Assembly: GCA_002356455.1 (NCBI GenBank)
Contig: AP017968.1
Coordinates: forward strand, 1,798,001-1,862,000
Source of the DNA: Fusobacterium varium
GTDB taxonomy: Bacteria > Fusobacteriota > Fusobacteriia > Fusobacteriales > Fusobacteriaceae
Direction of reading: 5' to 3'
DNA length: 64,000 nucleotides
A model generated the notes under the pieces. It ran no database searches. It saw only the letters and a program-made list of their open reading frames with translations, and was not told the DNA's origin. Shown one piece after another: positions 3 to 14,940 of the stretch (positions are counted from its first letter, which is position 1; the number at the start of each line of letters is the position of its first letter). Made by a program: the position numbers and the translations under genes.

Positions 3-266
3 TTCAATATTTTAAATAAAGAGATTTTTACATTAAAAATTAATTTTTCTACTGTTGAAACTAGTTTAATTGAATTTGCTAATTTCTATAAAGTTGAGCG
101 AGGAACTATAGTAAATATTAATTTAATAAAATATCTTGATTACAAAGAAGAAAAAATATTATTTAAAGATCTATCAGAATTGTATATAAGCAAGATAAAG
201 CTGAAAGAGATAGAGGAAAATACATCCATAACCAAAAATAAATTATATTTAAAAAATACACAATAA
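3..266 (+). CDS. C-terminal part of an unrecognised protein (5' end outside window)
   Basis: An open frame of 87 codons runs from the window edge to TAA at 264-266. The composition (many Lys, Glu, Ile, Leu, with regular hydrophobic spacing) is protein-like, and neither of the other two forward frames is open across it. The C-terminus is charged and ends in Asn-Thr-Gln. There is no recognisable motif and no start in the window, so I cannot name it. It is followed by more than 300 bases without a gene. Confidence 0.5.
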   Translation, partial: FNILNKEIFTLKINFSTVETSLIEFANFYKVERGTIVNINLIKYLDYKEEKILFKDLSELYISKIKLKEIEENTSITKNKLYLKNTQ

Positions 267-604
267 AAGCTAACTCTAAATATTTTAATAACAATATCAT
301 ATGATAAAAAATGAAATGAAATTTTTTCATCTGTTTTATTTTTTATTTGGATAAAAATAAATATTATTTATGATAGTTAAAAAGTAATATTATTTTTTAA
401 TTATGAGTAAAAAAGTACGGAAAATAGATGGAAAACAACATATAAAATAAAAAAAATTTTTTAATCGAAAAAATTAATATTAGAGATAATTATAATGGAA
501 AATAAAAACATACAAAATTTAATTTAATTGACTTTAAAAGTTATTAATATATAATTTTAATTAGACAATCAAATTAAATATAAAAATCAAAGGAGGATAG
601 ATTT
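267..604. other. Intergenic stretch without a gene
   Basis: About 340 bases, extremely AT-rich, with stops in all frames. A weak stem (ATGAAA pairing with TTTCAT near 310-335, then T-rich sequence) could end the preceding gene. The last bases carry the strong ribosome site AGGAGG of the next gene. Nothing else is supported. Confidence 0.5.
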
Positions 605-943
605 ATGAGAAAAAGATTAATAGTCATTTTAGGATTAGTTTTTTTTAATTTTATTTATGCATGTGAGTATGATGAAGAAGTAAATAATCTTTTAAAAAAT
701 GAAGTTGTAGTAATAGAAGACAGAGAAATATTAATAGATTTAAAAGATTGGGACAAGCTTTCTGAGATAGAAAAGAAAGAATTACTAGGAATGATGAATA
801 GATATACAAGAAAACATACTAAAAAATCAGCATATAAAATAGTTGAAAAGGAAAGCAGAACTAAATTAGCTGAAATAGGTGTTACAGATGTAGTATTATA
901 TGAATATGTTTTACCAGAAGATAAATCACAGGAAAAGGAATAA
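605..943 (+). CDS. Small secreted or lipid-anchored protein, unknown function
   Basis: 112 residues. The N-terminus is a typical export signal: Met-Arg-Lys-Arg, then a hydrophobic stretch to about residue 18, ending Ile-Tyr-Ala-Cys. This could be cut after Ala by signal peptidase I, or after modification at Cys20 by signal peptidase II. The Tyr at -2 is unusual for a lipobox, so I leave both open. The mature part is highly charged and probably helical in the middle (Lys/Glu-rich, residues 50-90). A strong ribosome site (AGGAGG, 591-596) fixes the start. I recognise no family. A second small exported protein lies at 1672-2043. Confidence 0.65.
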   Translation: MRKRLIVILGLVFFNFIYACEYDEEVNNLLKNEVVVIEDREILIDLKDWDKLSEIEKKELLGMMNRYTRKHTKKSAYKIVEKESRTKLAEIGVTDVVLYEYVLPEDKSQEKE

Positions 944-1065
944 ATTTAAAGTTTAAAAGTTTATTGGAGAGAGAACTTAAAAAAATTAATTAAATAATTA
1001 ATAATCATAAATATTTAGATTTTTCACTAATGGTGATATAATTTAAATAAAAAGGAGTATCTCAT

Positions 1066-1431
1066 ATGGAAAGAGTAGTAAAAAATAAACTCGAACAAAG
1101 ACTGATAAATTCTATGGTAAAAGTTCACAGCCTCTTAAGAGAAAGTTTTATGACAAGAAAAAAAGCTTCTTTTAAAGTAGAAGTTCCAGAATTTAAATAT
1201 TCTGAACTGACGCATCATGATGAACTTAAATTGGCTTTAGAATGTCTTAAATGGAATTATAGAGAACTCCTCAGATATTTAAAGAGTGAAAATTACTCTC
1301 CTTTATTAAAAGTAGTATTTTTATATGATTGTGAAAATTCTGTTCCAGTACCTTTAAATATAACCATAGAGAAATTTTTAGAAAGCGATTTATTTGTAGG
1401 TAAAGAAATATTGAATATAAAGAAAGTATGA
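1066..1431 (+). CDS. Hypothetical cytoplasmic protein
   Basis: 121 residues, no signal peptide or membrane segment. The start is preceded by AAGGAG at a normal distance (1051-1056). The sequence is mostly helical in appearance, with one Cys-Leu-Lys-Trp segment near residue 65 and a C-terminal Val-Pro-Val-Pro-Leu segment. It stands alone between two small exported proteins. The family is not recognised; it is judged real from the ribosome site, length and amino-acid composition. Confidence 0.6.
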   Translation: MERVVKNKLEQRLINSMVKVHSLLRESFMTRKKASFKVEVPEFKYSELTHHDELKLALECLKWNYRELLRYLKSENYSPLLKVVFLYDCENSVPVPLNITIEKFLESDLFVGKEILNIKKV

Positions 1432-1450
1432 AAAGAGAAAATTAAATTGA

Positions 1451-1558
1451 AGTGAACCCAAAAAGTTGGACAATATGTCTAATGAAAAGGGTTCATTTTT
1501 TATGAATAAATATACTTTAGAATTTAAATTAGAAGTAATTAAAAATATTTTGAATTAA
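1451..1558 (+). mobile_element. Remnant of an IS3-family insertion sequence (left end)
   Basis: The sequence TGAACCCAAAAAGTTGGACA (1453-1472) resembles the terminal inverted repeat of IS3/IS150-group elements (CCCAAAAAGTTNGACA). It is followed by GGGTTC, which can pair with GAACCC, and by an ATG at 1502 opening a frame that reads MNKYTLEFKLEVIKNIL and then stops at 1556-1558. This is the usual N-terminus of the IS3 orfA helix-turn-helix protein. Everything after residue 18 is missing and no right end is seen nearby. It is a dead fragment of an old insertion, and shows this region has hosted transposition. Confidence 0.7.
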
Positions 1559-1671
1559 TAAAAATATAAAAAGTTTGTATAAAAACTAAAAAGGAAATTA
1601 ATTTTAAAGCAGTATAGATTTAAATATAAGATATTTTATTAAAAATTATATATACTATTAGGAGGATACTG

Positions 1672-2043
1672 ATGAGAACTAAAATTGTGATACTATTAAT
1701 GTTAATTATTTCTACATTATCTTTTGCTGATGAAAAATTTACTCTTTTTGAAGAAAATATGGAGTTAAATCATGAGTATATTACAGATGGAAATCATAAA
1801 TTAAAAATAACTGATATTGATATTGGAATAACTGATGGAGTTCCTTTTGTCATTTTAAAAACAGAAAGTACTTTTAATGAGAGAGATTGGAAAAAATTTG
1901 ATAAAAAAATCTATAATCAAATTGCTGGAGAAATAGCAGATGAAGTTAGAGGATATTTAAATACAGATGTTGATGTAAATATAATTTTAATTCTTAATAA
2001 AGATTTAGGAGAGGATAAAGTACTTTCAGAAGCACAATATTAA
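1672..2043 (+). CDS. Small exported protein, unknown function
   Basis: 123 residues with a clear signal peptide: Met-Arg-Thr-Lys, a hydrophobic core rich in Ile/Leu, and a probable cut after Ser-Phe-Ala at residue 19, leaving Asp-Glu-Lys at the mature N-terminus. The mature part is acidic with alternating hydrophobic residues suggesting beta strands, and a helical section (residues 70-100). The ribosome site AGGAGG at 1662-1667 supports the start. A strong terminator follows at once. The plan resembles the 605-943 product (short, exported, single domain), but I see no clear sequence similarity and name no family. Confidence 0.65.
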   Translation: MRTKIVILLMLIISTLSFADEKFTLFEENMELNHEYITDGNHKLKITDIDIGITDGVPFVILKTESTFNERDWKKFDKKIYNQIAGEIADEVRGYLNTDVDVNIILILNKDLGEDKVLSEAQY

Positions 2044-2053
2044 TATATAATGT

Positions 2054-2090
2054 TAAAGTTTCCCATTTCTGTTAAAAATGGGAAACTTTA
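2054..2090 (+). terminator. Strong intrinsic terminator
   Basis: A perfect 15-bp stem (2054-2068 with 2076-2090, loop of 7), containing TTTCCCATTT and its complement. It sits just after the stop of the small exported protein and before the convergent gene ending at 2150, so it may work in both directions, although the T tracts are embedded in the stem. Confidence 0.8.
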
Positions 2091-2149
2091 AATAAATACT
2101 ATTATTTTTTATAATACTATTTTGCTGTATACTTATTTAAAAGATACAA

Positions 2150-2860
2150 TTAAAACTGTAATTCTAATTCAGCATTATCAATAGTCAGCATTGCTGTTTT
2201 AACATCACCATTAAGATATTTTTGACATTTTTCTTCTAACATCTTTAAGGCATTTCTTAAATCTTCTTCTCTTTCTGGAGCTAATAATTCGATTACAATA
2301 AAAGCATTTTTAGTTTTATCTGTAATCATTGTTCTTTCACCATCACGCCAGTTAAAGCAACGACATACAGCTCCAATATCATCTTTATAGCATAATTCAC
2401 CTTTGAGTGTAGGAGATGGCTCAGTATCTCCAATCAGATAAAATGAGTCGTTACCTTCAGTGATAGTTAAATGAAGGTCACCTGCAAAGGTATCAATATC
2501 TTCAGCACCACATGGCAGGGCAAATCTTAAGGAAACAGCATTGTAAATATCTACTAATGTATTAATACTTGAAACAGGATTTCCTTTTTCTGCCCGTTTT
2601 AAAAGTGCTTCAATACTGCATCTAGCTCCTTTTTTTGTTTTAAATTTCTGATAAGCATCACGATATATTTTAATTACAGTATTTTCACTAAAAATTTCAC
2701 TAGTCAAAAAATTTTTAGCAATTTCATTGCTGCTTTCAAGAAATTTTTTTATTTCTTGAGGTGAATCATTAGAATTTTTAAAATCTTTCAATAATACTAC
2801 ACCTAATTTTGCATTAGGAAATAATTCCCAAAAAGAATTATCTATAATAAATTTACTCAT
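2150..2860 (-). CDS. B3/B4 (phenylalanyl-tRNA synthetase beta-like) domain protein
   Basis: 236 residues matching the stand-alone B3/B4 domain family, which is related to the editing region of PheRS beta. Family-like features are Asn-Pro-Val-Ser-Ser-Ile-Asn (about 94-100) followed by Asn-Ala-Val-Ser-Leu-Arg-Phe-Ala-Leu-Pro-Cys-Gly (about 107-118), and Phe-Asn-Trp-Arg-Asp-Gly-Glu-Arg-Thr near residue 170. Members are thought to clear mischarged tRNA or bind amino acids, but the exact substrate is not established, so I keep to the domain name. AGGAGG precedes the ATG. It has its own promoter (2923-2951) and converges on the exported-protein gene. Confidence 0.85.
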   Translation of the reverse strand: MSKFIIDNSFWELFPNAKLGVVLLKDFKNSNDSPQEIKKFLESSNEIAKNFLTSEIFSENTVIKIYRDAYQKFKTKKGARCSIEALLKRAEKGNPVSSINTLVDIYNAVSLRFALPCGAEDIDTFAGDLHLTITEGNDSFYLIGDTEPSPTLKGELCYKDDIGAVCRCFNWRDGERTMITDKTKNAFIVIELLAPEREEDLRNALKMLEEKCQKYLNGDVKTAMLTIDNAELELQF

Positions 2861-2922
2861 GGAAACCTCCTAAAATATTTTCATAAAAAAATAACATTCA
2901 TACATATCTTCTTAGACCTAAC

Positions 2923-2951
2923 GATATATACAAATGCTTACCCGGTGGCAA
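2923..2951 (-). promoter_or_regulatory. Candidate sigma-70-type promoter of the B3/B4 gene
   Basis: Read on the minus strand: TTGCCA (2946-2951), 17 bases, TATATC (2923-2928), about 60 bases before the start codon. Spacing is ideal and the -35 fits, but the -10 is only moderate. The locally GC-richer CCGGG in the spacer stands out in otherwise AT-rich DNA and could be part of an operator. Confidence 0.45.
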
Positions 2952-3926
2952 TAATATTTTTTTTTAATTTTATCACAAATAACAACACTTTTCAAATTTT
3001 ATTAAGAAAAATTTTAGGCATTAATAATAAAAATAAAATTCTTTAATAGATGAAAAAGTTATAATTCATATATATGATATTTTTTAAACAAAAATGAATT
3101 GATATGAAAAAGCTAAACTTATCTTTTATAAATTTTTTAAAAAATAAATTAATTATATTCTTTTTTTAATTTTATTGAATTTATTTTTTTATTAATTTAT
3201 AAAGCATCTGCTTTTGCTAACTAAAAGATTAGATGTTCTAAATATCCTTCAAGATATTTAATGTAGACAAATCTTATCATAGTTATAAAATATGTATAAA
3301 TACTAATTTTGTAACAGTGTACAAGTGCGTAATTGTTGATTTTAAAGGATATATTTGATATGATATAAGGAAAGGTGTATTTCATATATATTTTATTTTG
3401 AAAAGTAAAATTCAAAAATTATTATAATTATTTAAACTTAGTAATAAATGGTAAAATATACAGAAAGTTAATTGAGAAGTTTTATTTTAAATTATAAAAA
3501 TATTAAAATTGTTAAGTATTTAATAAGCAATGATTTTCTTATTTTATTAGAATAATAATTGTTGTTATTAAAAAATTGGATATTTTGCTGAGGATTATAA
3601 AAATAATTTTAAGAATGCTTGTTAAATTTTTCTAAGTACCCAAAAACTTTTAAATTTATAAAGAGCATGCTGGCTAATGTCAAAGTGCTGAATTCAATAT
3701 TGAAATACTAGTTCAATTGTTATAAAAGAGCAACAGCTTTATCCAGTGTCTACAGCAAGATGATACTGAAGCAAGTTATTATAGTTCTTACAGTTAATAT
3801 TTTAGTTTCTGGTATGACACTTGAAGTAATGATTATATATCAAAGTCAATTAAAATAGAATATCTGATTAAAAACTTAAAAAATGAATAATCTAAAGAAA
3901 AAATATGCAAAACTGGGGATGGGTAA
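2952..3926. other. Long gene-poor stretch with a decayed coding fragment
   Basis: About 1 kb without a supportable gene. From 3000 to 3650 it is AT-rich with many stops; a 64-codon minus-strand frame there has no ribosome site and a composition of pure AT noise. From about 3660 the composition becomes more coding-like: a frame open from 3712 to TAG at 3858 reads with a hydrophobic stretch (VIIVLTVNILVSGMTLEVMI), interrupted upstream by a TAG. It may be the remnant of a membrane protein. The ribosome site for the following gene is a weak GGGGATGGG. Confidence 0.45.
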
Positions 3927-6005
3927 ATGAAAGAAAAGTATAAAATTTTAATTGTAGATGATGCAGATATTAATCGTTCCATATTATCAGATATGCTGTC
4001 AGCTCAATATGAAATTATAGAAGCAGGTAATGGATTAGAAGCAATTTCAATATTGGATAAACAGTATTCTGAAATATCACTAATTCTTTTAGACATTATG
4101 ATGCCTAAAATGGATGGTTTTGAAGTATTATCTATCATGAATAAAAGCAGATATTTAAAAAGTATTCCTATCATTACAATTTCAGCAGAAACTTCATCTG
4201 CCTATATAAACAAAGCATATAATTTAGGAGCAATTGACTATATTAACAGGCCATTTGATGAAAATACTATAATACATAGAGTTAAAAATACGATTATGCT
4301 TTACACAAAACAAAAAATAATGGAAGATACAATTGCAGAGCAATTTTTAGAAAAAGAACAGAAAACCTTTTTAATGATAGAAATATTAGCTAATATTGTT
4401 GAATTCGGCAATAGTGGAAGCAGTATGCATATATTAAATATTCGAACACTTACAGAACTATTACTGCGACATTTAATTCAAATGACAGATCAATATTCTC
4501 TAGATTCTGTACAGATTTCTCTTATTGCTAATGCTTCCTGTATGCATGACATAGGAAAAATTTCTATCTCTCAAGAAATATTAAATAAACCTAAATGTTT
4601 AACAACAGAAGAATTTGAAATTATTAAAAATCATACTATTATTGGAGCACAAATATTAGAAAAAGTTCCTGAGTATAAAAAAGATGGATTATTACAAATT
4701 GCACATGATATCTGTCGTTGGCATCATGAACGTTATGATGGAGGTGGATATCCTGATGGACTTAAAGGAGAAGAGATTCCAATATCTGCCCAAATAGTTG
4801 CTTTGGCAGATGTTTATGATGCTCTTACGAATGAGAGAATTTATAAACCCACTTATTCTTCTGAAAATGCTGTACAAATGATTTTAAATGGAGAATGTGG
4901 GGTCTTTAGTCCTCTTTTATTGCAGTGTCTTAAAGAAGTTGCTCCTTTTATTGAAATAGAAAAAGAAAAAAATGCAGTATTATTGCCTACTTCAATTGAT
5001 ATTAATAATATACTTATAGAAAAACAAAATTTTAGTAAACCTTCTAAGCGTACAATGACACTTTTAGAACAGGAACGTATAAAATTTCAATTTTTTGCCT
5101 CTATGGCAAAAGAAATAATGTTTGAATATAATGAAGATTCAGATTTATTAACTATTTCTGACTGGGGAGTTGTTAGACTTGGTTTAGATGAAATTACAGT
5201 ACACCCTTTAAATAATGAAAAATTAAGATCAGTATTCAAATTAAAAGATTTGAAAGATTTAGCAGATCGCTTAAGACAGGCAAGTGTTAATCATCCTGTA
5301 ATACATGCTACATATAATTTGAATGTTCAGGGACAGTGGCGCTGGCATAAAATAATAGCCAGACCTCTATGGAGTAATAGTGAAGATGATGAAAGAACAG
5401 GAAGCATTGGAAAAATAATGGATATACATGAAGAATATACACAAATGGAAATATTAAAAATGAAAGTAGAACAAGATTCTTTAACTAAGCTTTATAATCA
5501 TGTATCAATCCGTAAATTGATTGAAGCAGAATTAAAATTAAAAAATAAAAAGCACTATGCATTAGTTATTATAGATCTTGATTATTTTAAAATTGCAAAT
5601 GATAAATATGGACATATGTTTGGAGATAAAGTACTCAAAGAAGTGGCCAAAAGAATACTTAAAAATATAAAAGAGGAGGATATTGCTTCCAGAATTGGAG
5701 GAGATGAATTTTTAATATTTTTTTCTTATAATGAAAATAGTAACATAGAAGTATTGGTAAAACAATTATTTCAAAATATCTGTGGTAAATTTGAAGAATT
5801 TTCAATTTCTATTTGTATGGGAGTCTCTATTTATCCAGAAAATGGAAGAAATTATGAACTGCTTTTTCAACAGGCTGATAAAGCTTTATATAATGCTAAG
5901 AAAAGAGGCAGACAACAATATTGCTTTTACAGCACTTTCATGCAGAAAAACTCTTCTGTTATTTCATCAATAGATAGTAATTTGGACATTTATAGTCAGA
6001 GATGA
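3927..6005 (+). CDS. Response regulator with HD-GYP and GGDEF domains (c-di-GMP turnover)
   Basis: 692 residues with four parts. Residues 1-120 form a receiver domain: acidic pair Asp11-Asp12 and phospho-acceptor Asp56 in LLDIMMPKMDGF; the usual conserved Lys is replaced by Arg108 (INRPF). Residues about 140-335 form an HD-GYP phosphodiesterase: HDIGK at 207-211, HH near 262, DGGGYPDG near 270-277. Residues about 385-505 look like a PAS-type sensor. Residues about 515-680 are a GGDEF domain with intact RIGGDEF at 589-595; the inhibitory RxxD site is not canonical (Lys in place of Arg). The protein could therefore both make and degrade cyclic di-GMP under control of a histidine kinase. No kinase gene is adjacent. 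A terminator shared with the convergent EAL gene follows. Confidence 0.9.
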   Translation: MKEKYKILIVDDADINRSILSDMLSAQYEIIEAGNGLEAISILDKQYSEISLILLDIMMPKMDGFEVLSIMNKSRYLKSIPIITISAETSSAYINKAYNLGAIDYINRPFDENTIIHRVKNTIMLYTKQKIMEDTIAEQFLEKEQKTFLMIEILANIVEFGNSGSSMHILNIRTLTELLLRHLIQMTDQYSLDSVQISLIANASCMHDIGKISISQEILNKPKCLTTEEFEIIKNHTIIGAQILEKVPEYKKDGLLQIAHDICRWHHERYDGGGYPDGLKGEEIPISAQIVALADVYDALTNERIYKPTYSSENAVQMILNGECGVFSPLLLQCLKEVAPFIEIEKEKNAVLLPTSIDINNILIEKQNFSKPSKRTMTLLEQERIKFQFFASMAKEIMFEYNEDSDLLTISDWGVVRLGLDEITVHPLNNEKLRSVFKLKDLKDLADRLRQASVNHPVIHATYNLNVQGQWRWHKIIARPLWSNSEDDERTGSIGKIMDIHEEYTQMEILKMKVEQDSLTKLYNHVSIRKLIEAELKLKNKKHYALVIIDLDYFKIANDKYGHMFGDKVLKEVAKRILKNIKEEDIASRIGGDEFLIFFSYNENSNIEVLVKQLFQNICGKFEEFSISICMGVSIYPENGRNYELLFQQADKALYNAKKRGRQQYCFYSTFMQKNSSVISSIDSNLDIYSQR

Positions 6006-6107
6006 AAGAGTAAATAGCTAAAATTAAGCTTTATATAATGGAAATAAATTTTAAAATAATCTTATTAAAGAATTTGAAGTTCAGTATAAATTTAATTAAA
6101 AACGATA

Positions 6108-6140
6108 AAAATACCAGAGATTTAATATTTCTGGTATTTT
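6108..6140. terminator. Bidirectional terminator between convergent c-di-GMP genes
   Basis: AAAATACCAGA (6108-6118) pairs perfectly with TCTGGTATTTT (6130-6140) across an 11-base loop. A tracts before and T tracts after allow it to work on both strands, serving the genes ending at 6005 (+) and 6170 (-). Confidence 0.8.
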
Positions 6141-6169
6141 ATATTTGATGTTTATTTAAAATTAAATAA

Positions 6170-8035
6170 TTAATTTTCTATGGTTATCCAGTCAATATTG
6201 TTTATTTTTTCAAAATCTGACAGAGGCATAGGTTTATAAAATACATATCCCTGTATTAAATCGCACTTGATTTCTTTTAAAAATTCAACTTGTTCTGTTT
6301 TCTCTATTCCTTCAGCTACTGTTTTCATATCTAACCTATTTGCAAGGGTTACTATTTCTTCTATAATTATTTTTTCTCTTTCTTTATATTCACTGTCATC
6401 AAAAAATAATGAATCGAATTTAATAATATCAACTTTCATATTTTTTAGAGTATTTAAAGAAGAATAGCCCTTTCCAAAATCATCCATAGCACATAAGAAA
6501 CCATTATTATGAAGTTCATTTATTATTTTTTCTACTTTTTTCATATCATCAAATATAATAGATTCTGTAAATTCAATTATTATTACTCTGTCAGGAATAT
6601 TGTATTTTTCTTTAATATCAGTGTATATTTTTATAAAATCTGTACTATAAAATTGTATTTTAGAAACATTTACAGAAATTGAAATAACTCTTTTATAATT
6701 ATCAAGTTGTTTTTTCAACCACTGGCATACACTTTCAAATATATATTGATCTAAAGTATTTATTAAAAAATTTTTTTCTAAAATAGGAATAAAAATACTA
6801 GGAGATATAAATTTTCCATTATTATTCCATCTTGTCAGAGCTTCAGCACTTTCAATTTTCATTTCTTTTAATTCTACTTTAGGCTGGAAATATGTTAAAA
6901 TTTCTCCTGTATTGATTGCTTTATTAATATTATTTTTTATAAAATTTTCTTCCAGCATTTTATTTTTTATGTACTTGTCATAGAATGTATAATTAGTTAT
7001 TCCACCTTTTATTGTTTTTTGAGCAAAATTGGCTTTATCTATCAAATTTTTTATTTTAATATTAGTATTATTTTCATCAATATCTTCTAGACAACATATT
7101 CCACCATAAATTGAGGCTTGATAGCTGTTGTTGTTTTTTTCTAAAAATTCTTTAAAATGCTTGTCAAGATTCAACTGACGTTTTAATAATTCATTTTTAT
7201 TATAATATTTTCTTAATATAACAAATATGTCTCCAGAAACTCTTCCACTAGTTTCCTTTTTCTGATTATCCAGTTCAAGGAGTCTATTATATTCTTTTAA
7301 AATATAATCTCCATATTTATATCCCAAAATATCATTACAATATTTAAAATTTTCAAAATCTAAATAAATAATAGCAAATTTATCATTTTTATTTTCTTTG
7401 ATTAAAATATCAGCCTCTATTTTAAATTGTTTTAAGTTGTTTCCTTCAGTTAATTCATCTTTGAATATTAATTTTCTAAATTTATCATTTGTTTTTTCAA
7501 GAAATACTTGATATTTTAGTTGAAGAATAAAGATAACTATACATGTGACTAAAGAAATTATAGATAATATGATTATTAAAAACATAAGTTTGCTTGAATA
7601 AATTCTTGTATATTTATCAGCAGAGAAAACAGTGCTATTAGCTAGATTAAAAAAATCTTCACTTAAATTTAAGAACTGAGATTTTTCATTTCCATTTCTT
7701 ACATCAGAAATATTATTTTTTATTTCATTCCATTTTTTATTTAATTCTAATAAATTATTATTATATTCCTTGTCACTTATACGAGGTAAATTATATTTTC
7801 CATTTCCATTTAATAAATCAAATAAAATTTCATCAACATACCTTATAAGATCATCATTTGGAAGAGAATTAGTTTCTAATTTAAAAACTCTTTGAGACGC
7901 TCCTCTGACTATTCCCAGATAATTAATCCAACGACTATATCTCTTTATTTGAATGATGGAATTTATAGAAATCAAGCAGGCAGCTACTAATAATGTAAAA
8001 AAAATAGGTTTAATAAACTTTCCGAATTTATTCAT
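6170..8035 (-). CDS. Membrane EAL phosphodiesterase with degenerate GGDEF
   Basis: I start this at 8035 (MNKFGKF), which has AGGAGA at 8041-8046; the longer frame to 8104 would overlap the upstream gene and lacks a ribosome site. 621 residues: a membrane helix at about 10-28, an extracytoplasmic helical part, a second membrane helix near 150, then a GGDEF-like domain in which the signature has become RVSGDIF, so cyclase activity is unlikely. The C-terminal EAL domain keeps AEALTRW, SVNVS, EFTES, MDDFGKGYSS (Lys where Thr is usual), AEGIE and QGY, so hydrolysis of c-di-GMP to pGpG is plausible. It lies 53 bases downstream of the PAS-GAF-GGDEF gene and is probably co-transcribed with it. Confidence 0.88.
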   Translation of the reverse strand: MNKFGKFIKPIFFTLLVAACLISINSIIQIKRYSRWINYLGIVRGASQRVFKLETNSLPNDDLIRYVDEILFDLLNGNGKYNLPRISDKEYNNNLLELNKKWNEIKNNISDVRNGNEKSQFLNLSEDFFNLANSTVFSADKYTRIYSSKLMFLIIILSIISLVTCIVIFILQLKYQVFLEKTNDKFRKLIFKDELTEGNNLKQFKIEADILIKENKNDKFAIIYLDFENFKYCNDILGYKYGDYILKEYNRLLELDNQKKETSGRVSGDIFVILRKYYNKNELLKRQLNLDKHFKEFLEKNNNSYQASIYGGICCLEDIDENNTNIKIKNLIDKANFAQKTIKGGITNYTFYDKYIKNKMLEENFIKNNINKAINTGEILTYFQPKVELKEMKIESAEALTRWNNNGKFISPSIFIPILEKNFLINTLDQYIFESVCQWLKKQLDNYKRVISISVNVSKIQFYSTDFIKIYTDIKEKYNIPDRVIIIEFTESIIFDDMKKVEKIINELHNNGFLCAMDDFGKGYSSLNTLKNMKVDIIKFDSLFFDDSEYKEREKIIIEEIVTLANRLDMKTVAEGIEKTEQVEFLKEIKCDLIQGYVFYKPMPLSDFEKINNIDWITIEN

Positions 8036-8088
8036 TTTTTTCTCCTGATATTGATTTTTATTTAAACAACAAAAATACCCAGAAAAAA

Positions 8089-9441
8089 TTATTTTTCTGT
8101 GCATGAGGTAATTTTATTTTTAAGCTTTACTTTTTTATTATGATATATTTTTTTATCTACATACATTTTTTCTTCTGCTATTTTTATTAAGTTATCTATT
8201 TTTTCTGATTTAGATGCCCAAATATGCCCAATTGAAGCTAATGGACCATTTGAACTTTTTAAATTTTGTTTTAATTTTAAGACATTTAAGGAAAACTCAT
8301 CATAAGTCATAGAATTAGAAAAAACAATAAATTCATCTCCTCCAATTCTATATTTTGAATCTTTTATAAAAATTTTATTTATAGCTTTAAAAACATTTAT
8401 TATAAGTTCATCTCCTGCAGTATGCCCTATGTTATCATTTATATCTTTTAATCCATTTACATCTATAAATAAAATTCCTAATCCATTTTCCATATTTTGG
8501 CTGAAATTTTCTTTAGTTTTTATGAAGGCATTTCTATTTAAAGCTCCTGTTAAAGAATCATAATAACTCAAATTTTCTAACTCTAATAATAAGTTTTTAC
8601 GTTGGAGCATTTCTAAAAAGAAATATGATAGTATTCTTAAAATATCAATTATATTTTTCATCTTTTCTTTAGGAGGATTATCTATACCAAAAAGACCATG
8701 GAAATTGTTATTCTCTATGATTGGAAGAACAATTAAAGAATGAATGCCTTGAGGTTTTAAAGTTGAATATTCAATAGGCTCTATTTCTTTGATATCTTCT
8801 AAATTTTCTATAACTATTGGAAGATCATATATAAATTTATCAATCCATCTTTTAAAATCAACTAAAGATATATTTTGCAGTGAGTTTTTAGCTTCCATTA
8901 TTCCTTCAGCACACCATTCATAAGTATTATCTAAAGTATTATTTTTATTTAATTCAAAGATATATGCTCGTTCTCCATTTAAATAATTTCCCATTGTTTC
9001 AAGAGTATTATTAATTGCAGTACTAATATCTGAAGAAGAGTGCATCATTTTTATACACTCTAAAACAATTTTTTCATTTTTCAATGTTTGTTCTAAAATA
9101 ATTTTTTCATTTTCTTTTTTAGTAATATCAGTTGCAGTAACTAAATGAACAATTTTTCCATTCCATTTAATTAATTTTTCTTTTTTTAATAAATATTTAT
9201 TAATAATTGGATTTTTACATTCCCATTGATGTGATTCTTTTTCACTAATACGGTTTACATTACAAAATGAACATGGAAAATCTTTTTTATAAAATATTTC
9301 AAAACATTTGTGATTTTTTACTTCATTAAAATTTTTATAACCAAATAAATCCAGTCCATAAGCATTTAAGTAAAGCAGCTTATAAGTTTTTAATTCAATT
9401 ATATAAACAATTTCATTTAATTCATCTAATATTTTTTTCAT
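8089..9441 (-). CDS. PAS-GAF-GGDEF diguanylate cyclase
   Basis: 450 residues, no membrane segment. Residues 1-110 form a PAS-like sensor containing a cysteine group (Cys at about 47, 57 and 60, pattern FPCSFC), which might bind a metal or sense redox. Residues about 125-280 resemble a GAF domain. Residues about 290-445 are GGDEF, with YDSLTGALNR at its start and intact RIGGDEF near residue 366, so synthesis of c-di-GMP from GTP is expected. AGGAGA precedes the ATG. With the EAL gene immediately downstream it forms an opposing cyclase/phosphodiesterase pair in one likely operon. Confidence 0.88.
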   Translation of the reverse strand: MKKILDELNEIVYIIELKTYKLLYLNAYGLDLFGYKNFNEVKNHKCFEIFYKKDFPCSFCNVNRISEKESHQWECKNPIINKYLLKKEKLIKWNGKIVHLVTATDITKKENEKIILEQTLKNEKIVLECIKMMHSSSDISTAINNTLETMGNYLNGERAYIFELNKNNTLDNTYEWCAEGIMEAKNSLQNISLVDFKRWIDKFIYDLPIVIENLEDIKEIEPIEYSTLKPQGIHSLIVLPIIENNNFHGLFGIDNPPKEKMKNIIDILRILSYFFLEMLQRKNLLLELENLSYYDSLTGALNRNAFIKTKENFSQNMENGLGILFIDVNGLKDINDNIGHTAGDELIINVFKAINKIFIKDSKYRIGGDEFIVFSNSMTYDEFSLNVLKLKQNLKSSNGPLASIGHIWASKSEKIDNLIKIAEEKMYVDKKIYHNKKVKLKNKITSCTEK

Positions 9442-10184
9442 ACTTTCTCCTAAAAAGTTTAAAAAATTCTTTTAAAGAGTATTATCAACTCTCATAACTT
9501 ACTAATATAATACACTTTTTTTTATAAATGTCAAAGTCAATTTTTAATGTTTATTAGATAAAAAATACGTTTAAAAAATAATTAATACCTCTTAATGGGA
9601 ATTATATTCAGAAAAAACTAAATAAAATTGAGAAAAAAGAATTTATATATGGAATGTCCCCAAAAAAGAAATTCTAAAATTTATAAGATAAAAATTTAAT
9701 TTTCAGTTTTTATAGAAATTTTTAAATTTTTAGATTCTGCAACTTTATTTATATTGCTTTTTAAACTAATATGAAATAGTAGAATATAACATTTCATTGA
9801 AAAGTAAAAATAATAGAACTTAAAAATATAAAAAATTTTATTAGAAAAAGAAAGATGTTAAAAAATAAACAGATTTATTAGTAGGATTGTAAGATATGAT
9901 TATGAATTGGAAGAAGTGCCTGACAAGAAAAGCAATTGGGATAGAAAAACTAATAACAAGAGAAAGAAATACAATCTTCAAAGATAAATAGATAATTGAT
10001 TATATGGTAGAAAAAATAAAAAACAAACATATTGATATAGTAAGAAAAATGTAAAAGAAAAATTAAATTTATAATTTAGATTTTAGAGAAAACAGAGAAA
10101 AAAATAAGATTTTATATAAAAAGAAAATTGAAAATAATATTAAATTTATTAGAAAAAATAATCAGTTAAAAATCGATTTAAATA
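9442..10184. other. Gene-poor stretch with short decayed frames
   Basis: About 740 bases lacking a supportable gene. Between 9870 and 10050 short frames in different phases read like broken protein (for example FISRIVRYDYELEEVPDKK, then IIDYMVEKIKNKHIDIV), separated by stops and shifts, suggesting an old pseudogene on the plus strand that I cannot identify. The remainder is AT-rich. The last bases hold the promoter of the following gene. Confidence 0.4.
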
Positions 10185-10213
10185 TTGTTTTTTAAGAGTG
10201 TTTATGATAATAT
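10185..10213 (+). promoter_or_regulatory. Candidate promoter of the sensor-EAL/binding-protein operon
   Basis: TTGTTT (10185-10190), 17 bases, TAATAT (10208-10213), ending 29 bases before the ATG at 10243. Spacing is ideal and both boxes are close to consensus. Confidence 0.5.
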
Positions 10214-10242
10214 GAGGATATAAAATTAAACTAGGTGAAATT

Positions 10243-12474
10243 ATGAAAAAACTTAAATTGAAAAAGAAAAAAATTATTGCCTCAATAATATTTTTTAATA
10301 TTATCATTGGAATTTTTGTAATAGTTTTAATGAGACATGTACAAAATTTACTTTACTCAGATGTGAATATACATTTATCAGAAGTTATTAATCAAAATAA
10401 GGAAGTGATTACAAATAAATTAAAATTAGAGATAAATAATTTAAATTTTATTTCTTATTTAATTGAAGAAGAAATAAAAAAAGAAGAGATAAAAAATAAT
10501 GAAAAAATAAATGATGAAACTATAAAAAAAATATTTTTAAAGTATTATAAAAGTAAAAATAATAAAGATGTATACTTTTCTAATAAAAGAGGAGAGGCTG
10601 TTTTTCTTAATAAGGTTATTGATATTTCTGGAAGAAATTATTTTAAACTGTCAATTCAAGGAATAAATAATATCTCAGAAAGAATTATTTCCAGAGATAA
10701 TGGTGAGGACATGTTTATAATAAGTGTACCTATAAAATATAAAAGGAAGATTATAGGAACCATACAAAAAAAATTTACTCCAGAAGAAATGTATGATATA
10801 TGTTCTGTTCCTCTATTTTCTTCAAAAGGAAATACATATATAATTAATAGTCAAGGTTATATATTAATAACTTCAAATTATGAGCAATACAATAGAGAAA
10901 CTGATAATTATTTTAGAGTACTTTACTCAGAAGGAAATAAAGAAAAATCAGAGCAATTGAAAAGAGATATAATGGAAAATAAAAGTGGATTTATTGAAAT
11001 AGGAGGAAGTGAAAAATTCTATTTAACATATACTCCTATAAAAGAGGTTCATGACTGGTATCTTATTTCTACTATTTCTACTGAAATAATATCAAGAAAT
11101 GGAAATATGGTAGTTAAAATATTTTATTTCATACTTTTTATTATAATTTTTGTTTTTTTATTCAGTGGTCTATATTTTTTAGATTATAAAAATAAACAAC
11201 AGATTCAATTAGAAAATATTGCGTTTATTGATAATGTTACAAAAGGGGATAGTTACAATAAATTTATTGTAGATTTACCACAAATACTATTAAATAATCC
11301 AGGAAAAAAATATCATATATTAAAGTTTGACATAAAAAAATTTAAATATATAAATAGTTTTTATGGTTTTGAATTTGGAAATAAAGTTTTAAAAGATATT
11401 TATAGAAAAAATAAAGAAAAATTAACAGCAAATGAAAGAATTGCTAGAATATCAGCTGATAATTTTGTTATTCTGCTTGAAGAGTTTTCAATAGAACGTT
11501 TAAATGATATTTTAGAACCATTAAATTACGATGAGGGTGCAACTATTTATTTTTCTGGGGGAGTATATTCAATAAATGATATTTTTGAAAATGTAAATTT
11601 AATGATAGATAAAGCAAATATAGCAGCTAATTCTGTAAAAGAAATAATGAATAAGACACTTGGGTTTTATTCAGAAGAATTTAATTCTCAAATTCTAAAA
11701 AATGAAAAGTTAAAAAAAATGCTAAGAGAAGCAATTGATAAAAAAGAATTAATACCATATTATCAGCCTAAAGTTAATATTAATACGAATAAATTAGTTG
11801 GTGCTGAAGCGTTAGCCAGATGGAAAACTAAGGATGGAAAACTTATATCTCCTTTCGAATTTATTCCAATTTGTGAAAAAACAGGAATGATTGTAGAATT
11901 AGATATGATAATTTTTGAAAAAGTTTTGAAGTTTTTAAGAAATAATTTAGATAAAGGAATAGAGTGTACCCCAATATCTGTTAATTTTTCAAAGTTACAT
12001 ATTAATGATAAAAATTTTTTTAAAAACATAATGGATAAGCTTGATAAATATAATGTTCCAACTTCATTAGTTGAGATTGAAATGACAGAAACTGTTATTT
12101 TTGATAATTATAAATTAATACAAAACTTTATCAGAGAATTACATAAGGTAGGACTTATGATTTCTATGGATGACTTTGGTACTGGATATTCTTCTTTAAA
12201 TATGCTGAAAGATATTCCAATTGATATTTTAAAAATTGATAAAGGATTTTTAGATGAAAGCTCTAATCCTCAAAGAAGAAATATAATTTTTTCAGTAATA
12301 GTGGACCTTGCTCAAAAATTAGGAATAAAAGTAGTGGTAGAAGGTGTTGAAATGATTGAAAATATAAAATTAATGAAAGATTCTGGCTGTTATGTAGCTC
12401 AAGGGTATTATTATGCTAAGCCTATGGCAGAAGAAGAGTTTCAAAAAATATATGAAGAGGGGATTATATGTTAA
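10243..12474 (+). CDS. Membrane sensor with EAL phosphodiesterase and degenerate GGDEF
   Basis: 743 residues. A membrane helix at about 12-32 and a second at about 290-312 enclose a 250-residue extracytoplasmic region of the type seen in Cache sensors (ISGRNYFKLSIQG, ISRDNGEDMFIISVPI, then a second lobe). Inside the cell a GGDEF-like domain has lost its signature (RISADNF, about residues 405-411). The EAL domain looks active: EAL in GAEALARW near 521, SVNFS, EMTET, MDDFGTGYSSL near 641, KIDKGF, VEGVE, QGY. It should degrade c-di-GMP in response to an external ligand. The 3' end overlaps the next gene, a sugar-binding lipoprotein, by 7 bases, suggesting translational coupling and a shared signal. 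Confidence 0.9.
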   Translation: MKKLKLKKKKIIASIIFFNIIIGIFVIVLMRHVQNLLYSDVNIHLSEVINQNKEVITNKLKLEINNLNFISYLIEEEIKKEEIKNNEKINDETIKKIFLKYYKSKNNKDVYFSNKRGEAVFLNKVIDISGRNYFKLSIQGINNISERIISRDNGEDMFIISVPIKYKRKIIGTIQKKFTPEEMYDICSVPLFSSKGNTYIINSQGYILITSNYEQYNRETDNYFRVLYSEGNKEKSEQLKRDIMENKSGFIEIGGSEKFYLTYTPIKEVHDWYLISTISTEIISRNGNMVVKIFYFILFIIIFVFLFSGLYFLDYKNKQQIQLENIAFIDNVTKGDSYNKFIVDLPQILLNNPGKKYHILKFDIKKFKYINSFYGFEFGNKVLKDIYRKNKEKLTANERIARISADNFVILLEEFSIERLNDILEPLNYDEGATIYFSGGVYSINDIFENVNLMIDKANIAANSVKEIMNKTLGFYSEEFNSQILKNEKLKKMLREAIDKKELIPYYQPKVNINTNKLVGAEALARWKTKDGKLISPFEFIPICEKTGMIVELDMIIFEKVLKFLRNNLDKGIECTPISVNFSKLHINDKNFFKNIMDKLDKYNVPTSLVEIEMTETVIFDNYKLIQNFIRELHKVGLMISMDDFGTGYSSLNMLKDIPIDILKIDKGFLDESSNPQRRNIIFSVIVDLAQKLGIKVVVEGVEMIENIKLMKDSGCYVAQGYYYAKPMAEEEFQKIYEEGIIC

Positions 12475-13478
12475 AGAAGATTTTATTGTATTTAGGATTA
12501 ATGATTTTTTTTATAAGTCTGATTGGCTGTAAAGACATTAATAAAAGTAAGGGAAAGATAGGGGTATCCTTAGCAGTAGGAAATGCTGCAAGGTGGGAAC
12601 AAGAAAAAGAATATATGCAAAAAAGGGCAGATGAACTAGGGGTTGAAATTGAGATAAAATTAAATACAAAAAATGAGTCTAAAACACAGGAAAAAGATTG
12701 CTTTGAATTAATCAATAGTGGAATTGATGTATTGATTATTACCCCACGTAATGGAAATGATATGAGTAAAATTATAAAGTATGCTGAAAAAAATAAAGTA
12801 AAAATTATAAGTTATGCACGAATTATTTTAAAAGAAAAAATTGATTTACATATAGGGTATGATAGTAAAAGAATGGGACAGATGCAGGGACAATATTTGG
12901 CTGAAAAAGTTTATAGAGGGAACTATATTATTTTAAAAGGGGATGAAAATGATGACAATGCTAATTTATTATATGAAGGAGCATTGAGATATATAGAGCC
13001 AATAAAGAATGATATTAATATAATTTTGGATACTTCAATTTCTAATTGGTCTCCTAAAGTAGCTAAAGAATTAGTCATGTCAGCAATAAAAGCAAATAAT
13101 AATGAAATAGATGCGATATTAGCACCTAATGATAAAATAGCTGAAGGATGTGCAGAAGCCTTAGAAGAATTAAATATAAAGAAAAATGTAGCTATAACAG
13201 GAATGGACGCAGAATTAAGTGCAATTAGAAGAATTTTAAACGAAAAACAAGATGTAACAATTTATATGGATTTGAAAGAATTGGCAGATACAGCTATAGA
13301 TGAAGCATTTAATATGATACAGAATAAACCTGTCAATATAAATGCAGAATATGATAATAAAAGTGGAAAGAAAATAGCCTCACATCTTATCACAGGAAGA
13401 TTGGTAACAAAACAAAATATAGATAGAATATTAATAGAAAATAAAGTTTTTACAAAAGAAGAAATATATAATGAATAA
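12468..13478 (+). CDS. Orphan periplasmic sugar-binding lipoprotein (XylF-like)
   Basis: 336 residues with a lipoprotein signal (hydrophobic core, lipobox Leu-Ile-Gly-Cys21). The mature protein follows the type I periplasmic binding fold of xylose/ribose-binding proteins: RWEQEKEYMQKRADELG, SGIDVLIITPRNG, a DNNA-type segment (DDNANLLYEGA), APNDKIAEG, and AITGMDAE, matching the ligand-binding positions of XylF-like proteins. No ABC transporter ATPase or permease gene is nearby. The gene begins inside the preceding EAL gene, so the likely role is to present a ligand to that sensor rather than to feed a transporter; this is inference from position. A terminator follows directly. Confidence 0.85.
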   Translation: MLKKILLYLGLMIFFISLIGCKDINKSKGKIGVSLAVGNAARWEQEKEYMQKRADELGVEIEIKLNTKNESKTQEKDCFELINSGIDVLIITPRNGNDMSKIIKYAEKNKVKIISYARIILKEKIDLHIGYDSKRMGQMQGQYLAEKVYRGNYIILKGDENDDNANLLYEGALRYIEPIKNDINIILDTSISNWSPKVAKELVMSAIKANNNEIDAILAPNDKIAEGCAEALEELNIKKNVAITGMDAELSAIRRILNEKQDVTIYMDLKELADTAIDEAFNMIQNKPVNINAEYDNKSGKKIASHLITGRLVTKQNIDRILIENKVFTKEEIYNE

Positions 13479-13486
13479 ATTTACTA

Positions 13487-13518
13487 AAAAATCTAGTATC
13501 AAAAAATACTAGATTTTT
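13487..13518. terminator. Bidirectional terminator overlapping the end of the minus-strand gene
   Basis: AAAAATCTAGTAT (13487-13499) pairs perfectly with ATACTAGATTTTT (13506-13518), loop of 6. It ends the binding-protein operon on the plus strand. On the minus strand it overlaps the last codons and stop of the small membrane protein gene. Confidence 0.8.
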
Positions 13519-13879
13519 TTTTGAAATAATTATATAAAAAAGAATTTAATAAGCTAGCACTAAAACCAACAACTACAATAGTAAAAAATTTTTCACAAAT
13601 TATAAAATGATTAGAAAAAAAAGCATTAAAAAGAATATGAAAAATAGTATTACCAAGTAAAAAATTAAAATAAATAGAAATTATGAGGTAATAAAAAAAA
13701 TATTTTAAATTAAATTTTTTGTCATTTAGCCAATAAATAAGAACTGTTGAATAGTATATAAAGGATATGTATTTTCTTATAAAAGGCAAATGAAAACTTG
13801 TAAAGAAATCCAAAAAAATAGTAAAAATAATCAGTAAAACTCCAATACTAAAAATAAAAATATTAAATTTTTTTATCAT
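13499..13879 (-). CDS. Small integral membrane protein, unknown
   Basis: 126 residues, about four membrane helices (roughly 8-25, 38-52, 60-80, 95-115), very rich in Phe, Ile and Tyr, with a basic C-terminal tail (FKKKSSIF). AAGGAG precedes the ATG at normal spacing, which supports a real gene in spite of the low-complexity composition. It may belong to one of the small uncharacterised VanZ-like or DUF membrane families, but I cannot place it. Its 3' end forms half of the terminator shared with the convergent binding-protein gene. Confidence 0.6.
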   Translation of the reverse strand: MIKKFNIFIFSIGVLLIIFTIFLDFFTSFHLPFIRKYISFIYYSTVLIYWLNDKKFNLKYFFYYLIISIYFNFLLGNTIFHILFNAFFSNHFIICEKFFTIVVVGFSASLLNSFLYNYFKKKSSIF

Positions 13880-14343: not shown

Positions 14344-14940
14344 ATGAAAAAATGTTTGCTTGTTTTATGTATTGTATTTGCTGGAGTCACATATTCAGAA
14401 GAAAAGAAAGATTCTTTAGTTACAGAAGGTGTTACTGAGGCAGTTTCAGGAGCAGTTTCAACAGGTAAGAACATATTAAAAGGATTAAAAAAAGGAATTG
14501 ATAAAGGAAGAGTTGAAGGAGAAAGTACAGATGATGCTACAATAATATTGGATGAAAAGACATTTCTTGAACATATTGATTGTAATATTATCTCTGTTGA
14601 AAAAACTGCTAAATATTATGAAGTAAAAGTAGGCTTAAAAAATAAAACAGATAAAATAATAAGACTAATAAATTTATCTGAAAAAAAATCATTGCAGTTA
14701 AAAGATAAAGAAGGTTATGTTTCATACTCTCTACATCCAATTTTAAATATAACAATTCCAGAAGAAAGTGGAATAAGAGCAAATTTTAGATTTTTAATGG
14801 ATGGAACTCCTTCTCAATTAAAAATATATGGAGTAGAATTTGTAATAGATAATACTAAAATTAAACAGGGGACAGAAAAAGAAATATATAATACAGTAAA
14901 TGATGTTCTCAATGAATTAGAACAAATAGACAAAAAGTAA
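14344..14940 (+). CDS. Exported protein, unknown function
   Basis: 198 residues. Signal peptide Met-Lys-Lys then a hydrophobic core to about residue 17, probable cut near Thr-Tyr-Ser before Glu-Glu-Lys-Lys. A Gly/Val-rich amphipathic section (about 26-52) is followed by an acidic linker and a 140-residue beta-rich domain with pairs such as KYYEVKVGLKNKTDKIIRLINL, which has the look of an immunoglobulin-like or DUF4352-type fold. AGGGGAAG precedes the ATG. A stem terminator follows. I do not recognise a specific family. Confidence 0.6.
   Translation: MKKCLLVLCIVFAGVTYSEEKKDSLVTEGVTEAVSGAVSTGKNILKGLKKGIDKGRVEGESTDDATIILDEKTFLEHIDCNIISVEKTAKYYEVKVGLKNKTDKIIRLINLSEKKSLQLKDKEGYVSYSLHPILNITIPEESGIRANFRFLMDGTPSQLKIYGVEFVIDNTKIKQGTEKEIYNTVNDVLNELEQIDKK

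Follow-up and report, generated by a model that had tools for sequence, protein, structure and literature searches.

The genes at 10243–12474 and 12468–13478 of the window (the whole 64,000-nucleotide stretch of Fusobacterium varium DNA that was analyzed, contig AP017968.1, positions 1,798,001 to 1,862,000) encode a predicted membrane c-di-GMP phosphodiesterase and a XylF-like solute-binding lipoprotein. The best explanation for this pair is that the two proteins form one two-part receptor, and we put the probability of this reading at about 0.6. The host genome (G000) is 4.12 Mb in size and belongs to the phylum Fusobacteriota. The initial annotation had described a membrane sensor-EAL protein with a large outside domain whose gene overlaps by 7 bases that of a XylF-like lipoprotein lacking transporter genes, and the open reading frames, Pfam, hydropathy, and NCBIfam all bear this description out. 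The features of the locus are as follows.

10112–10242, + strand: upstream stretch also present in G025, another species of the genus, and probably holding the promoter and leader of both genes (DNA match to the G025 locus, L019)
10243–12474, + strand: membrane c-di-GMP phosphodiesterase (predicted), with a dCache-like sensor, a degenerate GGDEF domain, and an EAL domain (ORF, Pfam, motifs)
10342–11112, + strand: extracytoplasmic sensor domain, dCache-like, residues 34–290 (between two hydrophobic segments; phmmer)
11716–12423, + strand: EAL domain, residues 492–727, with motifs EAL, N, E, DD, K, E, and Q intact (Pfam; motif positions)
12456–12462, + strand: AGAGGGG, inside the enzyme gene and probably the ribosome-binding site for the lipoprotein (sequence, by eye)
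12468–12474, + strand: 7-base overlap of the enzyme and lipoprotein genes (ORF coordinates; identical overlap in L019)
12468–13478, + strand: XylF-like solute-binding lipoprotein (Peripla_BP_4), lipobox Cys21 (Pfam, NCBIfam, phmmer, AlphaFold)
13489–13522, + strand: A+T-rich hairpin followed by a T run, possible terminator (by eye)

The first gene encodes a protein of 743 amino acids (ORF list), for which hydropathy places transmembrane segments at about residues 8–38 and 285–316, with the roughly 250 residues between them outside. Its EAL domain matches PF00563 with an E value of 2e-63 (214 bits against a curated Pfam cutoff of 31.3), and the residues that we take to be catalytic fall at EALARW 522, SVNFSK 579, EIEMTE 611, MDDFGTGYSSL 642, LKIDK 663, VVEGVE 698, and AQGYYYAKP 719. 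The GGDEF domain (residues 350–468) is a weak Pfam match (E 1e-10), and the GG[DE]EF cyclase motif is absent from the enzyme, with RISADNFVIL at 402 in its place; this domain is degenerate, and the enzyme does not qualify as an active diguanylate cyclase. Pfam matched no family in the N-terminal part, including dCache_1 directly, and a search of the sensor sequence against solved structures gave no match up to E 1. With phmmer, the sensor matches proteins that carry dCache_1 over the Pfam cutoff (L048, E 1e-13; L051, E 3.5e-10; L050, E 1.5e-9; L053, E 1.9e-8), a resemblance by which the outside domain is best called dCache-like. The full-length AlphaFold model of the enzyme (m54f756c0e3c2; mean pLDDT 78, pTM 0.44) has the long first helix and mixed strands expected for such a domain. 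In a fold search, its EAL part matched solved EAL enzymes with a Z score of about 32; EAL and GGDEF structures filled the list of matches, so the comparison by fold covered chiefly these domains.

The second gene encodes 336 amino acids with a Pfam Peripla_BP_4 match (E 3e-47). Hydropathy gives a single N-terminal signal segment followed by LIGC, a lipobox with Cys21 that we assigned by eye, suggesting that the protein is anchored in the membrane as a lipoprotein. The top NCBIfam models are those for XylF, with scores far under their cutoffs (NF007680, 204.6 against 504; TIGR02634, 199.2 against 389.55), and the protein does not score as a XylF equivalog. It nevertheless matches XylF in phmmer (E 1e-48), and its AlphaFold model (m513d4dde52b6, mean pLDDT 89) finds E. 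coli XylF (3ma0; target TM 0.90, 31% identity) as its best solved-structure match, one close homolog aside.

The DNA match to L019 starts at 10112, and the approximately 110 bases directly before the enzyme start codon are near-identical; a promoter scan upstream of the enzyme gene yielded no single candidate above chance. The hairpin at 13489–13522 falls outside the DNA shared with G025 and is absent from a terminator scan that requires three G-C pairs. No transporter gene lies next to the pair, as the adjoining ORFs encode proteins of 126 (other strand) and 198 amino acids without Pfam matches, and neither XylG nor XylH is found beside the lipoprotein gene in the window or in L019. The region from 3927 to 12474 holds four clustered c-di-GMP genes: a protein with receiver, HD-GYP, and GGDEF domains that keeps both motifs, another EAL enzyme whose GGDEF domain is degenerate, a GAF-GGDEF cyclase with an intact motif, and, last, the enzyme studied here.

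The pair is also present in G025, where the enzyme is 92% and the lipoprotein 85% identical and where the order and 7-base overlap are unchanged (L019; enzyme 6015–8249, lipoprotein 8243–9253). The initial annotation had stated that a transporter link elsewhere, together with an unconserved EAL adjacency, would speak against its proposal. The adjacency is in fact kept in the only other genome in which the protein was found, but this amounts to just 2 of the 12 genomes of the genus, with no others among the 61 family genomes searched. XylF relatives of 29–35% identity occur in four other family genomes beside ABC transporter genes, as judged by reading. A lipoprotein-only scan of 84,980 species genomes returned 19 pattern matches and no confirmed relative that was close enough.

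The DNA shared with G025 spans 10112–13482 (91.4%), comprising the two genes and about 130 bases upstream and ending 4 bases past the second stop codon; the surroundings otherwise have just short EAL and GGDEF similarities. The window flank at 14392–24000 matches 3.094–3.103 Mb of G025, whose pair sits at 2.242–2.245 Mb, and the DNA to the right of the G025 pair matches 2.947–2.953 Mb of the host genome, whose pair sits at 1.808–1.811 Mb. For the cyclase upstream of the window pair, the most similar G025 protein (57%) is encoded at 2.95 Mb, and the cyclase near the G025 pair is a more distant relative of it (36%). Because the flanks match elsewhere in both genomes, the two genes relocated together as one unit. 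G025 also has an IS200-type transposase gene in the vicinity of its pair. The dN/dS values between the two species are 0.13 for the enzyme and 0.23 for the lipoprotein; both genes are under purifying selection, and the pairing is more than accident. We estimate that, with about 4,000 genes and about ten of each kind, the chance of a Peripla_BP_4 gene standing immediately after an EAL gene at any point in the genome is about 1–2%, so adjacency by itself says little and the joint movement carries the argument. Among the EAL and Peripla_BP_4 matches listed over 98 phylum genomes, only the window and G025 pairs were that close, as judged by eye.

Matches to the sensor domain number fifteen, in 6 of the 98 phylum genomes. 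One in the host genome (E 1e-14) is the sensor of an 839-amino acid hybrid histidine kinase, the gene of which shares 4 bases with an SBP_bac_1 gene that encodes a lipobox-like signal (L047, G000:C1:105000-118000, 4427–8250); these two probably constitute a second two-part receptor in this genome. Four genomes of the genus have, after a sialic-acid operon that includes a TRAP binding protein, an EAL enzyme with a related sensor (27% identity), which ranks among the nearest relatives. The nan operon is found in L045 (G000:C1:239000-257000), L043, L044, and L046, with the EAL enzyme following in the same direction, and the L045 copy in G000 encodes, by Pfam names, NanM, LacI, DctP, a fused DctQ-DctM, an AXE1-type esterase, a ROK kinase, YhcH, and NanA-like and NanE proteins. 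This enzyme could link host sialic acid to c-di-GMP. In four genomes, Peripla_BP_4 matches situated 8–13 kb away from the closest relatives of the sensor were suspected of being a second binding-protein/EAL linkage, which was dropped once they were identified as LacI-type repressors of the sialic-acid operon. The gene tables place no binding-protein gene immediately adjacent to the remaining sensor relatives that were read, which are cyclases and chemoreceptors. This sensor type therefore has an overlapping binding-protein gene in at least one other place, though not always.

In L050 (G025, 4553–9252), the gene of an EAL enzyme with dCache_1 is arranged head to tail with that of a dCache_1-PAS-GGDEF cyclase, at a distance of 231 bases, and the matching place in G000 (L051) has just the cyclase. 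A GGDEF/EAL gene in L054 (G027:C1:985000-997000, 2700–5312) is apparently split into several ORFs, and in L046 the EAL enzyme of the nan operon is interrupted close to its start; these are possible cases of c-di-GMP gene decay or sequencing errors.

In the likeliest of the alternatives, the enzyme would sense its ligand directly through the dCache-like domain while the cotranscribed lipoprotein feeds or buffers the same nutrient without docking. Domains of this kind commonly bind ligands directly, according to the literature, and the dCache_1 domains to which the sensor is related mostly lack an adjacent binding-protein gene. We nonetheless consider this account rather unlikely, given that no transporter was found for the lipoprotein to serve and that the genes overlap tightly and moved jointly.

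Relatives of XylF were collected by a scan based on an alignment of five XylF proteins, in which 568 stretches matched and 498 were confirmed; the best 80 of the 498 were kept. One of these (L115) has no readable binding-protein ORF, so residues were counted over 79. XylG and XylH are both close by in 78 of these best 80. The only readable relative among them without transporter genes, L117, has neither; in its Bacillota assembly (114–6020), a XylF-like lipoprotein has as neighbors a sensor of the His_kinase type, a response regulator of the AraC type, and another Peripla_BP_4 protein, a layout familiar from a known class of sensors. At window positions 117, 246, and 267, which lie outside both scan patterns, all 79 readable relatives of the best 80 have D, Q, and K, whereas the window lipoprotein and its G025 copy have A117, M246, and M267. 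From comparison with ribose-binding protein, we take positions 117 and 267 to be sugar-contacting residues. The three changes make xylose itself doubtful as the ligand. Eight examined positions of the pocket region are kept (R42, W43, R118, N164, W194, N221, D222, and D247), although the conservation of R42 and W43 is partly built in, as one scan pattern contains RW. Judged from these residues, the pocket reads as re-tuned for another ligand rather than dead.

The host genome has ten BPD_transp_2 permease matches. Four were assigned to CUT2 sugar transporters, each with its own Peripla_BP_4 protein within a few kilobases, and the other six were taken as other transporter types by position and size. 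None of the four assigned permeases is spare for the lipoprotein, and no XylGH operon was seen in the genome. A 663-amino acid frame of G002 with a Peripla_BP_4 match was considered as a sensor and rejected; by reading, its position in an ABC operon marks it as a fusion of permease and binding protein. It is conceivable that the lipoprotein works with an ABC transporter from another locus, such as one of the ribose or galactose type, and that its place behind the enzyme gene reflects coregulation only. CUT2 transporters do exist in the host genome, and binding proteins are known in general to be shared among transporters. We regard this as improbable, however, since the four assigned CUT2 permeases are already provided for, since the XylGH operon that accompanies nearly all of the best 80 relatives was not seen, and since the pocket is altered at three otherwise invariant positions. 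In a phylogenetic tree, which has very long branches and gives no support to the placement of the two orphan proteins beyond their own pair, these two sit on a long stem branch of 2.7 changes per column; this branch length would suit a decaying remnant of a lost xylose transporter that lies beside the enzyme by chance, but the intact ORF in both species, the lipoprotein dN/dS, the well-formed model, the eight unchanged positions, and the joint movement with the enzyme gene make decay very improbable.

We favor the two-part receptor because the same pair and overlap recur in G025 after joint relocation and under the dN/dS values given above, because each of the four CUT2 permeases that could be assigned has a Peripla_BP_4 protein nearby, because a host hybrid kinase with a related sensor overlaps an SBP_bac_1 gene, because the transporter-less L117 adjoins a histidine kinase and response regulator, and because NspS-MbaA and ScrB-ScrC are established parallels. 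Against it stand the narrow spread of the pair within the genus and family, the possibility that the sensor binds a small molecule alone, like other dCache domains, the scarcity of immediately adjacent binding-protein genes at most other dCache loci that were read, and the pTM of 0.44 for the full-length, single-chain enzyme model.

In the proposed mechanism, the lipoprotein would descend from xylose-type ABC binding proteins and have been released from transport. Outside the inner membrane, it would bind a sugar or a molecule resembling one and, when loaded (or empty), dock on the dCache-like sensor domain. This contact would then shift the transmembrane helices of the enzyme and alter c-di-GMP hydrolysis by the EAL domain, with the GGDEF domain, devoid of its cyclase motif, perhaps acting as a regulatory relay. 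Just the phosphodiesterase side of the enzyme should be able to respond, and the sequence is compatible with either an increase or a decrease by the loaded form. Thus, of what the initial annotation proposed, the two-part receptor stands as the best reading, given a unit that travels together, no spare CUT2 permease, and a related sensor gene that overlaps an SBP gene, while the docking and the sugar ligand, like the direction of the effect, are what we infer.

Few of the outside signals that control the many EAL and GGDEF enzymes have been identified, least of all in Fusobacteriota. According to a review (PMC8846402), SBP_bac_3 was the only one of 27 PBP-clan families to have been studied in c-di-GMP networks. 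If the pair is a receptor, it would couple the perception of a sugar to motility or a surface-attached way of life in an anaerobe of the gut or mouth, and as ligand binding and enzyme output reside in two separate proteins, each can be assayed apart. We tentatively suggest, as a possibility that we hold to be somewhat against the odds, that several dCache-like sensors of Fusobacterium make up a family in which docked solute-binding proteins, differing in fold, act as the gate, and that the window pair is the first sugar-binding-protein-gated c-di-GMP hydrolase, with a pocket re-tuned from xylose. Under the same tentative reading, the family members might be the XylF-like lipoprotein and its EAL enzyme, the SBP_bac_1 lipoprotein and the hybrid kinase, and, less surely, the TRAP protein that binds sialic acid and the nan-operon EAL enzyme.

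Among known systems, E. coli XylF comes closest to the lipoprotein in both structure and sequence (target TM about 0.90, 31% identity); the window protein differs from it in the lack of XylG and XylH, in its lipoprotein signal, and in having A/M/M instead of D/Q/K. In XylFII-LytS of Clostridium beijerinckii, a sugar-binding protein of the Peripla_BP type without a transport role reportedly feeds D-xylose to an adjacent membrane sensor. The likeness lies in a related type of binding protein beside a membrane sensor gene, whereas its partner is a LytS-type histidine kinase and that of the window protein an EAL enzyme. The lipoprotein is much closer to transport XylF (E 1e-48) than to 5xsd, 5xsj, and 5xss (E 2e-6 to 8e-6), which are presumably the XylFII structures.

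Solute-binding proteins act on chemoreceptors, kinases, and GGDEF-EAL enzymes (PMC9602780, PMC11113362), in agreement with the statement in the initial annotation that kinases and chemoreceptors fed by binding proteins are known. Its further view that an EAL enzyme so fed would be unusual was too strong, as NspS and ScrB are periplasmic binding proteins that control the GGDEF-EAL enzymes MbaA and ScrC (PMC9993111, PMC10269520, PMC9602780). According to PMC9993111, NspS controls the membrane enzyme MbaA in Vibrio cholerae and Sinorhizobium meliloti; the genes adjoin, overlapping in most pairs by 3, 13, or 16 bp, and loaded NspS favors the cyclase activity of MbaA and lowers its phosphodiesterase activity. 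The window pair resembles this system in that a binding-protein gene adjoins or overlaps that of a membrane GGDEF-EAL enzyme, and as a candidate for the wider kind of c-di-GMP enzymes controlled by solute-binding proteins, it shows this gene adjacency conserved in two species. It differs in three respects: NspS is PotD/PotF-like (polyamine-binding), whereas the lipoprotein is a XylF-like Peripla_BP_4 protein and not PotD/PotF-like; MbaA retains cyclase activity, whereas the GGDEF domain here is degenerate; and the binding protein comes first there, whereas the enzyme comes first here. In ScrA-ScrB-ScrC of Vibrio parahaemolyticus, encoded in one operon, periplasmic ScrB switches the dual enzyme ScrC (PMC10269520), so that a periplasmic binding protein and a c-di-GMP enzyme are likewise encoded together; that system includes the signal-making scrA and a quorum-type signal rather than a sugar, and no such synthase gene is found at the window pair. 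ArtI with STM1987 in Salmonella and RmcA in Pseudomonas aeruginosa tie amino-acid binding proteins or domains to c-di-GMP enzymes (PMC8846402). The window pair would share such a link, but ArtI-STM1987 involves amino acids and a cyclase, and RmcA amino acids and a fused binding domain.

By analogy, NspS-MbaA and ScrB-ScrC would be the nearest in mechanism and XylFII-LytS the nearest in type of binding protein; the window pair belongs to neither the NspS-MbaA nor the XylFII-LytS family. The open-licence literature searched yielded no report of a XylF-type protein controlling an EAL enzyme. What is new is the combination of a XylF-like protein with a c-di-GMP hydrolase, and its place in Fusobacteriota.
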